Below the pieces are notes generated by a model. That model was not told the origin of the DNA. It made no database searches and saw only the letters and a program-made list of their open reading frames with translations. Made by a program: the position numbers and the translations under genes. A stretch of 64,000 nucleotides of DNA from Symbiodinium sp. CCMP2592 (lineage: Eukaryota; Sar; Dinophyceae; Suessiales; Symbiodiniaceae). Positions 579-47,888 of this stretch are shown piece by piece (position 1 is the first letter of the stretch; each line of letters begins with the position of its first letter). The stretch covers positions 248,001 through 312,000 of the forward strand of contig CAJNDT010004558.1 of assembly GCA_905221615.1 (NCBI GenBank), read 5' to 3'.

Positions 579-680
579 GGAGTTTCCGAATATTCGGGGT
601 ACCTGTTTTGGGGGGTCCTTATAATAAGGATCCTAGTATTTAGGGTGCTAGATTAGGGTCCCTATTTTCGGAAGCTCCCA
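579..680. repeat. Palindromic element, family A (copy 1)
   Basis: About 102 bp with inverted ends GGAGTTTCCGAA / TTCGGAAGCTCC and an internal GGATCC-containing core. It is shared with copies at 4238, 9598, 32203, 34751 and 37273. It has no coding capacity and resembles a MITE. Confidence 0.75.
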
Positions 681-2040
681 TGTAGGGTTCAGGGTTTAGG
701 TGTTCAGGGTTAAGGGTTTAGGGACTTAAGGCTGGCTCTGGACCAGATTTGGTCAACTTGAGTTTATTTTCAGCTCTTCGCGTTTCGGTGTTGTATGGTA
801 TCTTTGAAAGCCGTACCCCAAATCCTGAGCCGTGCCCCACAAGCAAGTAGAACCATGTTTGAGCTGTGTCCTGCTCTCGGAGGACACTCCGTCCGAGCGT
901 CTCCGTTGCTTCAGAAGACTCCTTCAATGCTTTAGGGTTCTTCCCTAAACCCTGGACCCTACCCCTTTCAAGGGTTCTTGAAAGGGTTCCCTTCCAGGTT
1001 ATTTGAAAGCTCCCTGGAAGGGCTCCCCAAAGCGGTTTTACTCAGTTGTTTGAGACGATGGCTGTAGCGACTCTACTACCTGAAAATTCATAACTGGTTA
1101 CAAGTAGGGTTACATCAGGAGGACAAAATTTTGACCTACTGTGCCTTTCTTGTCTTAAGACGTCTTGCGGAGTATCGGAGTGCCGCGAAGTGCAAATTGC
1201 GTGGCCTGGCCAGCGGAGTTGTTTTATACCCCGTTTTGAAATTATGCTACTTTAATGTTCGGAGGAGTATCCCGTGGGTCCTGTTCGTGTTAGGGTTTTT
1301 AAAGGGGGGATGGGGGCCTGTGGTCGACGAAGCAACGAATAGGTCAAACTTTCGTCCTACCGCAGTATAAGTAGGCAAACTATACTTATAACTTATAGCT
1401 TATTCTAACCCCAATTAACGGACTTATAACCCGACTTACATCTACCCCTAGGGTCCCAACCCAAAGCCCAAGACCCCAGGCCAGGAATCAGAAGTATCAC
1501 CCTGATCAAGAAACCCTAGATACAGCTACTGGGGTCGATATAAAACAGATAAATGCATATCTACATATATGTTTCTTTTTGTGCCTGCCTGCTTGTGTGT
1601 ACAAATTCTCTGTTACTATGGTATGGGGCGATTTTTCGGCGCCTTATGGCGCTATACTTTACTCCGCTCTGCTCTACTCTGCTGAACTATCTTACACCAT
1701 GCGACATTCTGCTAAAAACGACGCTTTGCCATACTATAAGATGCTTCGCCAAACTGTACAGTTCTATACGAGACTATACGACTCTGGGCTTTGCAATGCG
1801 GTATGATAGACGACGCTTGAGGAGCATTCATTAAGACAGCTTAGGAAGGGGTTGGATTCAGGATTTTGGGGTCTAGGTTTCCGGGATTTAGGGTCACTCG
1901 AACCTTCTTATCCATCCAAGACCCTATACTACGGAAAGAACCTAGTGAATCCCTCATATAGAGCCGTTCGACCCTTGCAGTAACCGTTCAAAGAGCTCGT
2001 ACAGGAAGTCCCTTCGATGGCTTCTAAGGCCACGTAGTAT

Positions 2041-2245
2041 GTAACTAGTAGTATGTAGGTTATAAGTAGGGTTATAATTGGGGTAACTCCATTTAGGGTA
2101 GATATATCCGTACTTATAACCTACTTACTAAGTCCCCTGGGCCTCTAAGTAACCCTAATCCCCCTTATAGAACCCTTAAAGATCCCTTTTAAGGAGCCCC
2201 TTAAGGAACCTTACTACTTACTAAGTCCCCTGGGCCTCCGAGCAG
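2041..2245. repeat. Palindromic element, family G (copy 1)
   Basis: It carries GTTATAAGTAGGG and the complementary CTTATAACCTACTTACTAAG, with CCCCTGGGCCTC tails. The right part (CTTACTAAGTCCCCTGGGCC) is present twice. The same sequence forms the intron at 36155-36461 and recurs at 47331-47537. Confidence 0.7.
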
Positions 2246-2561
2246 GCATCCTGGATGTTGAGGGCTTGGTCTCTGCTGCGGAGTCCTATGCCCTGCTCCT
2301 TGGAAATGCCTTAAGCCTACGGCTTCTGCTTAAAAGGGTGCCATGAGAGTAGAAGGTTTTTTTGCAAAATTAGGTTTCCCAATCGAGCTCGATAGAGGGG
2401 TCCTTTCACAAGGGTTCCATCATGGTAGAACCCTACAACCCCTCTTAAACCACTAAACCCTAAATCTGAATACCACCACACCACAGACCCGACCCTACTT
2501 GCGGGGTTCGAAGATTCATCGTTATAAAGGCTCCTATGTCCCATGGTGCACCCGTGCCCTT

Positions 2562-2655
2562 CCATGCCGAAATGACAGCGTGCAGGAGCGAAACCTTCTC
2601 CGAAGCAGTCGGAAAAAAAGGATCTCGGACCTCATGTCCTGAAGCTTCCAAGACC
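2562..2655 (-). CDS. Candidate coding exon, unidentified
   Basis: On the minus strand an open stretch reads VRDPFFPTASEKVSLLHAVI and then SAWKGTG. It begins near a CAG/GAG acceptor at the right and ends at a GTGCAC donor at the left. It could be a further exon of the minus gene at 3038-3405, but the phase could not be matched with certainty. No family is recognised. Confidence 0.3.
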
Positions 2656-2703
2656 CCCATTCCCTAAATGCGAAAGCCCCCAAACCGGTAGCCAGCGACA
2701 GCT

Positions 2704-2794
2704 ACCCGTAGGCCCCGAAGTAGTTCCATTTGGGGTTCATATCTAGAATCCTATGAGGTCATCCTAAACAGGAACTACTAGGGGCCTATGGCTA
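2704..2794. repeat. Palindromic element, family F (copy 1)
   Basis: The ends are ACCCGTAGGCCCCGAAGTAG and CTACTAGGGGCCTATGG, an imperfect inverted repeat of about 25 bp. Related copies lie at 18183-18339 and 25248-25339. Confidence 0.65.
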
Positions 2795-3037
2795 GTGCAA
2801 GGTTTTGGCTCCTCCCGGAGGGAGGGAACAAGTCGGCTACAGTGGTCGCCTCTTGCCTTGCGATCCCCGGAGAGCCCAATTTAACCGAGGTTCAGGGTTT
2901 AGGGTTGCAACAAAGGTTCGTGAATATCTAGCAAGATCCCCTGATGTACTTTTTCGCTAATGTCAGTGGTTCTTTATATGTTTGTACGCAGGGGTTTAGG
3001 AAGAGTGACTGGTTAACGTTGTCCCACCCTTCGTCAC

Positions 3038-45614: not shown

Positions 45615-45737
45615 TCTCACACCGACAAAACGCCGCCCCCTTAACCCAAGCCTTGAGCCCTGGACCTCAAACCCAAGGTCCCGCGCTTTGGTTTCGAGGC
45701 TTCAGTATTAGTGCTTCGGGGTTTAGGTCTTTAGGTT

Positions 45738-45829
45738 CTTCAGTTAGTTAGTTAGTTAGTTAGTTAGTGAGAGAGAGAGAGAGAGAGAGAGAGAGAGAGA
45801 GAGAGAGAGAGAGAGAGAGAGAGAGAGAG
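45738..45829. repeat. (TTAG)n followed by (GA)n microsatellite
   Basis: Six TTAG units run directly into about 30 GA units. Confidence 0.95.
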
Positions 45830-46084
45830 GGAGGCCTTTCAGGTCTGGGTTTCGGGGGACCTCGGCAACAAGGAAATCACATGCACGGATCAACAGCGCT
45901 GCTTGCAGGGTGATGTGACGCAGCTCTTGATATAAGTTCGGAGTTTCCGAGTCGCTGTGGCGTGTAGGGTGTCAGTTCCTCTAGGCTTCAGGTTTTTCGG
46001 GTTTTTACATAGGGGATAACCATGCAGTACCATAGAGCTGGATTGCTGAGGCATCTTGGGGTCCAAAGCCGGTAGAAGCCATGT

Positions 46085-46184
46085 GGGTCGTTGTCCAAAT
46101 TAGGATCCCTTTTTGGGTACCTAGTATAGTACGGCACCTATTATTTAGGGTACCCCAAAAGGGACCATAATTTTGACAACTACC
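46085..46184. repeat. Palindromic element, family B (copy 3) with target duplication
   Basis: GGGTCGTTGTCCAAATTAGG and CATAATTTTGACAACTACC between CATGT direct repeats (46080-46084 and 46185-46189). The core orientation is opposite to copies 1 and 2. Confidence 0.85.
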
Positions 46185-46675
46185 CATGTAGAACCTTTAT
46201 TGAGAATCCTCATGCCAGCATTACTTCTTCAAGCACTCATTGCATTACAGCACCCGGGGGTCTAAACCACACGGACCTGATAAACCCTGACACCCTCCGG
46301 ATCAGCTGAGGAAGCTTCGCCGTGAACCGGGCTGATGACGAACCCAGGCTGCAAGGATATGCCCCGTCCCTTGGAAACTGTGCTGTTCAGCTTCGGCCGC
46401 CATCAATGTCAGCATGGATGCTGGAGTCTGCTGTGCGTCTCTGCGAATAAACCAAGAACGATTAAAATTGCTGGGCTGGAAAGCCAATCACAATTTATTA
46501 GTGTCTGTGTTCTTTGTAAATCTGCATCGCAAAATCACGCTCGGAACAGCACCACGAGTATGAATGTCCAACTATTCCTCACCATGCGTTGACCACAGCA
46601 CCAGTGCGAGGAGTTAGCAGGACACTAGGCTATCTCAACGCAGCATGGTAATGATCAAGTCCTGATACCATTGGT

Positions 46676-46833
46676 GTGGTGGTTGGTATGCGAATTCTGT
46701 GCTGTCATGTGTTGCTGCGAGCCTGCGTTGCACGAAGGACGCCGTGCTGTATTCTCTGCCCTTCAACTTCTCCTTCTACGGGCAAGCATTTGACCAGGCC
46801 ACCGTCATGGGAAGAGGGCAATTTCAAGATTCT
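46676..46833 (+). CDS. Candidate exon with an 'LPFNFSFYG' motif
   Basis: A plus frame reads ANSVLSCVAASLRCTKDAVL, YSLPFNFSFYGQAFDQATVM, GRGQFQDS before GTTTAA. 'Leu-Pro-Phe-x-Phe-x-Phe-Tyr-Gly' followed by a Val-x-x-x-Gly strand is typical of NIDO-like and other extracellular beta domains. The exon start is not fixed and no neighbouring exon is found. Confidence 0.45.
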
Positions 46834-47888
46834 GTTTAACGAAGGCAGGCTTAGCCTAGAACTACCTTATTACTATAGATCCCTATTATGGCAACAGGAC
46901 TCCACTCCTGTAAGTAGGGTATGACAGGGCTAGCTCCGTTGAGGGTATTCAGAACTAACTTATAGCCAACTTTTCAAGTTCCCTGAGCCTCTATGTAGTC
47001 GTTCTATGAGGGTGTTCTACGTTTGGTGAGTTTCCCGTTGAGTGTGTGACTAATGCGTGCCGCCTTCCCAGAATCTATCCGCGAGTCCTCAATGCAAGTG
47101 CCCACGCTATCGCAGATTGTTCAGTCAGCATTGTCGTTCCTTAGGGTTATCGCATATTCCACCAACCTGTCCTAGCTATTGAGGCGCTCATATGACGCTT
47201 GAGTAAGATCGAGCCGTATTCAGAATCCTAAATAGCGGAGTACTACGATGGTCGCATTAGAGGAAGACCAGATTTTCAGAGGGCGCAGTATGACGCAGTT
47301 TTTGCGTGTAAACCCCAATTTGGTACTTGGAGGTCCAAGGGACTTAGTAAGTAGGTTATAAGTAGGGTCACAAGTACCCTAAATGGAGTTACCCAATTAT
47401 AACCCTACTCATAACCTACTTACTAAGTCCCCCAAGCCACCAAGTAACCCTAAACCTCTTTTATAGAACTCTTATAGATCCACTTTTAAAGAGCCCTTTA
47501 AGGAACCTACTTACTAAGTCCCCTGGGCCTCCAAGTAGTTCTGAAAGTTCTGAACCTCGAGATGGCTTGGCAGTGCCTGAGACTACTTTCGCGTTTAGAG
47601 GCTGGAAGAAGAAAGTCCATAATAATAATACCTAGAGGTTCCTGTGTAGTTCCTTTTTGTGGTTTCGGTTGGGAAACCATATCTTTCTGGTTCGAGGATT
47701 TTGGGAGTTCAAGAACAGGTTTTCCATGTTTCAAGAAACTTCAATATATCATCAAGAAAATGTAAGAAAGTCAAGAATATCATATCAGAATGATATCAAA
47801 TTATAAGAACTGATGAGCAGATGATGTTCATGTGCTGATGCTGCTGACATGTTTGCTGTGCCGCAATCAACCACACTCGTTCAGTTTT
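46834..47888. other. Boundary stretch without a recognised gene
   Basis: It contains the family-G copy 3 (47331-47537), the last CCCTAAA-like motif (about 47452) and AT-rich sequence. No coding exon supported. Confidence 0.45.
47331..47537. repeat. Palindromic element, family G (copy 3)
   Basis: CTTGGAGGTCCAAGGGACTT AGTAAGTAGG ... CCTACTTACTAAGTCCCC, with a further end unit to 47537. Layout is the same as 36155-36461. It is the rightmost palindromic element in the window. Confidence 0.75.

Follow-up and report, generated by a model that had tools for sequence, protein, structure and literature searches.

Palindromic repeats in a Symbiodinium genome resemble several kinds of short non-autonomous DNA transposons, one of which probably also forms introns

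The window analysed here is a 64,000-nucleotide stretch of the genome of the dinoflagellate Symbiodinium sp. CCMP2592 (GenBank assembly GCA_905221615.1; 1,098,105,373 bases in 5383 contigs), namely positions 248001-312000 of contig CAJNDT010004558.1 (C4557 in our numbering). Self-comparison of the window and extraction of copies gave 13 repeat groups within positions 579-47538, mostly about 80-125 bp in length and many of them self-complementary. The groups are lettered from A to O in a scheme of our own, which differs from that of a preliminary description of the same DNA. Family N, a palindrome of 111 bp that occurs once in the window, lies inside a gene encoding an M35-like metalloprotease.

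The M35-like gene is read on the plus strand. An exon at 9896-10189, recognised by reading frame and homology and with the start of the gene not fixed, stands upstream of N. It is followed at 10190-10304 by a proposed 115-nt GC...AG intron, consisting of the left GCTT and element N (10194-10304, plus strand, CTGGGTTCTTGTT...AACAAGAACCCAG, GCTT on both sides), for which frame restoration and homology are the evidence. The downstream exon (10305-10412, ...RYVVHVCPPTWKQN; reading frame, Pfam) leads into a probable ordinary GT...AG intron of 83 nt ending in TTTTCAG (10413-10495), which was used in the joined protein, and then into the catalytic exon with HESSHH and the Aspzincin domain PF14521 (10496-10666; Pfam; end of the gene not fixed). 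Taking out the 115 nt joins 9896-10189 and 10305-10412 in frame, and the Aspzincin (M35) Pfam score rises from 46.1 to 57.7 bits in the joined protein, a gain due in part to the removal of the second intron. A phmmer match to PDB 1g12 (E 7e-6) crosses the N joint, with weak conservation at that point. The M35 domain was the sole confident Pfam match in the first 48 kb, other matches being weak and set aside, in a search that covered 83 of the 151 stop-to-stop frames of at least 88 amino acids, 10 longer frames and six-frame tiles of positions 1-48002 except 27303-30000. By its sequence, the window copy of N together with its 4-bp duplication has the appearance of an entire intron within the M35 gene.

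A genome-wide search for N scored 40 places out of 1085 first-look candidates, and 20 further copies were fetched. Each of these measures 111 bp as extrapolated from the alignment. Among the resulting 21 copies the mean identity was 91% (range 52-100%), with the window copy averaging 81% to the others. The flanking 4 bp were duplicated exactly in 13 of the 21 copies, at three of the four bases in 5 and at fewer in the remaining 3, as against 0.98 exact duplications on average, and 6 at most, when the right flanks were shuffled. The arms of N pair over about 41 bp. Its right end in the window is CTCCTTAACAAGAACCCAG, with close variants in two of the other copies (L048 and L052), and because N is a palindrome the opposite strand of the window copy differs little from it (CTCCTCAACAAGAACCCAG), such that both strands end in ...CTYAACAAGAACCCAG. 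Some 11 bases ahead of its terminal AG this end carries CTTAAC (CTYAAC), which we take to be a branch-point-like motif.

A genome-wide pattern search for AG|GCNN joined to the N end returned nine sites, and a reversed control returned none. Locus L052 has the form AG|GCTC-110 bp-GCTC, and its flanks, when joined, read ...DGSYLDR|LWCVVELATF... across the junction. The joined peptide gave 44 matches in the genome besides its own gene; 33 of these extend across the joint by 7 residues or more in both directions, and 16 by 20 or more. Five paralogs, chosen from the best six of the 44 matches, were fetched, and all five run through the joint without a gap. L052 is an empty-site comparison, and its sequence indicates that N was inserted exactly and could be removed exactly.

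The wider population of palindromes was surveyed by a gapped scan for inverted repeats (hairpins) with a cut score of at least 50, applied to the window and to the adjoining 200 kb of the same contig, 264 kb in all. Twenty inverted repeats were found in 1-47.5 kb of the window, none in 47.5-64 kb and 80 in the next 200 kb, compared with none in one 194-kb Markov-1 shuffled sequence under the same scan. At least 2 of the 20 (5123-5338 and 28310-28497) are simple repeat or satellite, as are some of the 80 downstream. The palindromes are real and far above chance. The 100 inverted repeats sort into 32 clusters, with simple repeats among these, and 63 of the 100 fall outside the families of the window. 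The preliminary description had counted at least twelve families of 90-120 bp palindromes, with none beyond the region that they occupy, and had named rarity elsewhere as the thing that would speak against it. Its count is upheld by the 13 groups. Rarity is not what the scan found, since ten families (A, C, D, E, F, G, H, I, J and L) have further copies in the 200 kb that follow the window; B, N and O had none there, N being present on many other contigs. The absence beyond 47.5 kb is true only to the end of the window and is local, given the 80 inverted repeats that follow it. As regards size and form, B and C are weak palindromes, and G and one copy of H are longer compound units of up to 332 bp. 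In the self-comparison of the window, no match of an element to its own reverse complement appeared at E 1e-4 for A, B, C, D and I.

That the palindromes might be conserved structured RNAs or regulatory hairpins, and not mobile DNA, was considered in the light of their folding. Predicted hairpins were strong in 12 of the 13 groups, at -34 to -68 kcal/mol compared with -21 kcal/mol for B (one copy of each, with no shuffled control). However, the copies are dispersed on both strands and bear target-site duplications, and no Rfam match at the gathering threshold was found in the window or at three further loci (L003, L005 and L008), which makes an RNA or regulatory origin hardly credible.

Duplications were scored on the 264-kb copies of each family against a shuffled control, after dropping copies whose ends could not be located (A, 1 of 18; F, 1 of 6; J, 4 of 9; H, 2 of 6; D, 3 of 9; L, 0 of 3; E, 0 of 3). 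Exact 4-bp duplications flanked 8 of 17 copies of A (1.3 when shuffled) and 3 of 5 copies of F (0.9), exact 2-bp duplications flanked 5 of 5 copies of J (2.2), and exact 8-bp duplications flanked 2 of 3 copies of L (0.7). Miniature inverted-repeat transposable elements (MITEs) are short, lack coding capacity, have terminal inverted repeats and target duplications, and occur in many copies. The present elements are alike in all these respects: target-site duplications accompany N, A, F, J and L, and constant short length with terminal inverted repeats is seen in N (111 bp in all 20 fetched copies) and in J (109 bp in all five copies with both ends found, among nine matches in 264 kb). They differ in that the inverted repeats of the strong families span nearly the whole element and in that the groups have duplications of different lengths. 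From these sequence features the palindromes would seem to belong to several kinds of short non-autonomous DNA transposon.

It is thus highly probable, in our judgement, that the region holds many MITE families, most copies of which are non-coding, and that family N is in addition an introner. The observations on which this is built are the families, their lengths and duplications, the restoration of frame and the uninterrupted paralogs. Enzymes supplied elsewhere, presumably transposases, would insert the elements and duplicate 2, 4 or 8 bp depending on the family. The N end ...CTYAACAAGAACCCAG would bring with it the putative branch point CTYAAC and the acceptor AG, while the donor would be the first two bases of the 4-bp duplication when these are GC, and perhaps also when they are GT. 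An exonic N at a site starting with GC would be removed exactly as a GC...AG intron made up of the element plus 4 nt, so that insertion into an exon with such a duplication would create a complete intron and leave the message unchanged. N would then offer a clean genomic example of the passage from transposon to intron, with an acceptor borne by the element, a donor derived from the duplication and paralogs that retain the empty site.

If the elements were instead plain MITEs, the exonic copies of N would be gene-disrupting insertions in pseudogenes. This would fit the hallmarks of MITEs and the apparently non-coding position of most copies, but both well-supported genic copies of N lie on GCNN duplications that give exact in-frame GC...AG introns, and the exons flanking N are open and conserved on both sides. 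GC donors are moreover found in another gene of this genome, a CCT-like gene (presumably theta) in which all three introns within the 2.4 kb fetched are of the form AG|GC...AG|G. Pseudogene insertion is for these reasons improbable. Donors of the GC and GA type make up 25-74% of introns in Symbiodiniaceae, according to the portion of a review that treats them.

Several observations weigh against MITE families that include an introner, or narrow that reading. The splicing of N is something we infer from sequence. The M35 gene had no paralog in the genome at E 0.01, and hence provides no empty site of its own. Only four copies of N look genic, and only two of them strongly so, those in the M35 gene and at L052; L048 (duplication GCAT) and L053 (GCTG) resemble exon insertions solely in having an open frame, neither giving a Pfam match, and the frame of L053 is uncertain. 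A pattern of AG|GC or AG|GT joined to the N end occurs at 24 sites, which besides L052 and L053 comprise 7 with AG|GC and 15 with AG|GT. Fifteen of the 24 have no recognisable right end within 80-150 bp, 4 have at most three of four bases duplicated and 5 have exact duplications (L052, L053, L059, L075 and L078), the last three of which gave no convincingly coding context. GT donors are perhaps used by N as well, with no good case among these sites. Three loci of conserved chaperonin genes, 10.5 kb in all (L050 and L051 being scanned for repeats only), contained neither an inverted repeat nor a family match, and introners are therefore not dense in such genes. As regards the transposon class, D showed duplications in none of 6 copies with the cores used, and those of H and E are indistinguishable from a fixed TA.

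Whether the remaining families behave like N was approached through their flanks. The preliminary description had proposed that palindromes, many with GT/AG-like ends on both strands, can serve as introns in either orientation and that family C does so both ways. Carried to its full extent, this would make all the palindrome families introners, with every copy in the window spliced in one orientation or the other. N is a clear case, and its termini present the same branch-like sequence and AG on both strands. A coding-flank test was applied on both strands to 73 family assignments in the 264 kb (about 69 distinct places, 4 of them matching both C and D). The flank score, a crude one, consisted of codon log-odds derived from a single CCT-like gene and a single M35 gene, lightly smoothed by a Copia frame; both strands were scored for the elements but a single strand for the random control. 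None of the 73 assignments had a summed two-flank coding signal above the random 95th percentile, in a test so weak that N itself, at 13.0, stayed below the cut of 17.2, and none of the 100 inverted repeats in the 264 kb exceeded that level (best 17.1). It would seem from this that most copies are non-coding, possibly within longer introns. Coding-like segments of score at least 10 are concentrated in the palindrome-free part of the window, 47.5-64 kb (32 of 46), and at a score of at least 15 there are only 4 in 1-47.5 kb, as compared with 17 in 47.5-64 kb. As read from alignments, the termini of A, F, J, H, E and L supply no 3' AG, which would explain why these families do not appear in exons; the very varied splice sites of the introners with inverted repeats described from Amoebophrya mean that a missing AG is no strict exclusion (PMC7789003). 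Universal splicing is accordingly very improbable. What survives of the proposal is the case of N, by frame, homology and uninterrupted paralogs and by the AG that it carries, with no coding-flank signal in the other families by a test that N also fails, and no evidence that C is spliced in either direction. There is also a warning here, in that dense hairpin repeats in a genome of this kind may be mostly transposon debris, the AG-ended family being the only one seen making introns.

On orientation, the near-identity of both strands of N makes splicing in either direction possible, as had been suggested, but the three other exon-like copies (L048, L052 and L053) all share the orientation of the window copy. 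A broader proposition is that N arrives as a finished intron in either direction, given a sense-strand duplication starting with GC or GT, and that the groups with 2-, 4- and 8-bp duplications have converged on one shape, a full palindrome of about 110 bp. We hold this to be doubtful; if true, an element may owe its being tolerated or spliced to its form and not to its descent.

The proposed mode of N matches that of introner family 1 of S. microadriaticum, which, in the part of the account bearing on it, has a 4-bp duplication, terminal inverted repeats, its own 3' splice site and a 5' site from the duplication, an example spanning 86725-86839 of LSRX01000224.1, or 115 bp (Gozashti et al. 2022, PMC9860276). 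The two are alike in the 4-bp duplication, the inverted repeats, the acceptor on the element, the donor from the duplication and the 115-bp intron, as compared by architecture and length only. Introners of Amoebophrya A25 and A120 are described, in the section concerned, as having inverted repeats of 8-20 nt and direct repeats of 3-5 nt, with more than 60% of the introns not GT-AG and with many families (Farhat et al. 2021, PMC7789003). The dinoflagellate lineage, the hairpin inverted repeats, the short direct repeats at exon boundaries and the multiplicity of families are common to both, whereas the arms of N pair over about 41 bp and its introns are GC...AG, so that N falls outside an Amoebophrya-type definition as there worded. 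The genome of the window is presumably about ten times larger than that of Amoebophrya. Introner elements, called non-autonomous mobile elements, have also been reported from Prorocentrum cordatum and from Suessiales including Symbiodiniaceae, in the passages devoted to them (PMC10666404, PMC10522408, PMC11114475). These share with N the inverted repeats near both intron ends and the setting in dinoflagellate genomes, but in Prorocentrum they were defined by a motif search (inverted repeats of 8-20 nt, direct repeats of 3-5 nt), the comparison being one of descriptions only. Polarella glacialis has 15 introner families that each number 100 introns or more, as relayed by a review (Roy et al. 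2023, Curr Biol), and here again, by description only, the likeness is that of many introner families in one genome. The palindrome families may already be described in that work; the introner mode of N is already known and the families are perhaps already catalogued. A literature search on MITEs or palindromes in dinoflagellates returned, among three papers, a single one on a dinoflagellate genome, that of Amoebophrya; subscription papers lay outside its scope, and so it has little bearing on novelty. Only the range of duplication lengths found among palindromes of similar appearance goes beyond the compared portions of this literature.

The other families are distributed over the window as follows. 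Family A (five copies) is on the plus strand at 579-681, with ends GGGAGTTTCC...GGAAACTCCC and a 4-bp target duplication ANNT, at 4239-4338 and 9599-9699 (both from self-comparison and extraction) and at 32200-32302 (duplication ATTT), and on the minus strand at 37272-37385 (ATCT). The related family F, which falls in one cluster with A, has three copies, at 34012-34115 (plus, starting GGGTGGTTGTC), 44084-44191 (plus, duplication ATTT) and 46084-46187 (minus, ACAT). The four copies of B are all on the plus strand, at 8057-8168, where the palindrome is weak, and by self-comparison and extraction at 13671-13780, 40525-40635 and 45501-45609. The three copies of C, also plus, are at 3827-3940 (starting TACAGTAGAAGCC), 35415-35528 and 41050-41164, the latter two from self-comparison and extraction. 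C has one end in common with D, whose three copies are at 3265-3371 (plus, TA at both ends), 19190-19296 (minus) and 30513-30619 (plus), the second and third again from self-comparison and extraction.

Family E has two copies, at 13037-13145 (plus; self-comparison and inverted-repeat scan) and 16731-16840 (minus; self-comparison). The three compound units of G, all plus, lie at 2049-2246, 36131-36462 and 47324-47538; each was obtained by self-comparison and extraction, and the second and third were also found by the inverted-repeat scan. Family H also has three copies, at 2705-2801 (plus, TA CCCATAGGCCCC...), at 18182-18339 (minus, with an internal duplication) and at 25247-25342 (plus), the last two from self-comparison and the inverted-repeat scan. 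Both copies of I (24980-25074, plus; 33100-33197, minus) end in AAGGTAAGTT, which we take to resemble a classic 5' splice donor facing outward from the element. J, L and O are, like N, single in the window and on the plus strand: J at 17277-17389, a 109-bp core CCCAGAGAGCCC...GGGCTCTCTGGG with a 2-bp TN duplication; L at 25701-25816, where the 8-bp duplication is inexact, being exact in two other copies; and O, a palindrome with a duplicated flank, at 41634-41796 (self-comparison).

Other repeats share the window with the palindromes. Interstitial telomere-like TTTAGGG tracts occur at 8946-9026, 12824-12861, 18466-18500, 19395-19598, 21607-21659, 36515-36700 and 43386-43561, TTTAGGG being the telomere repeat reported for dinoflagellates in the relevant part of a review. 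These tracts and the AG|GC...AG|G introns of the CCT-like gene agree with a dinoflagellate genome. A chlorarachniophyte origin was considered and dropped, as Amorphochlora has TAACCC telomeres and, in the view of its authors, lineage-specific introns that probably did not arise from introners. An AT-rich TTACTCTA/AGAGTAAT satellite occupies 27339-30021 as two arrays in inverted orientation, the strand switching near 28405. In 22779-24240 a tandem array of a 173-bp unit gives way to a unit of 90/179 bp, and 1113-1365 is diverged from, but related to, a unit that is repeated in tandem about every 733 bp on other contigs. A word from family B had no match in viral contigs. Elsewhere in the assembly, three near full-length uninterrupted Cpn60 matches lie on contig C5051 (128155-129663, 1023267-1024829 and 1025913-1027412), possibly a bacterial contaminant. 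The plus strand of the window at 55570-63999 holds a frame of 2810 codons, open at the window end, with a CCCH zinc finger, RVT_2 and an aspartyl protease-like match (below cut-off), and corresponds to the polyprotein of a Copia-type retrotransposon.

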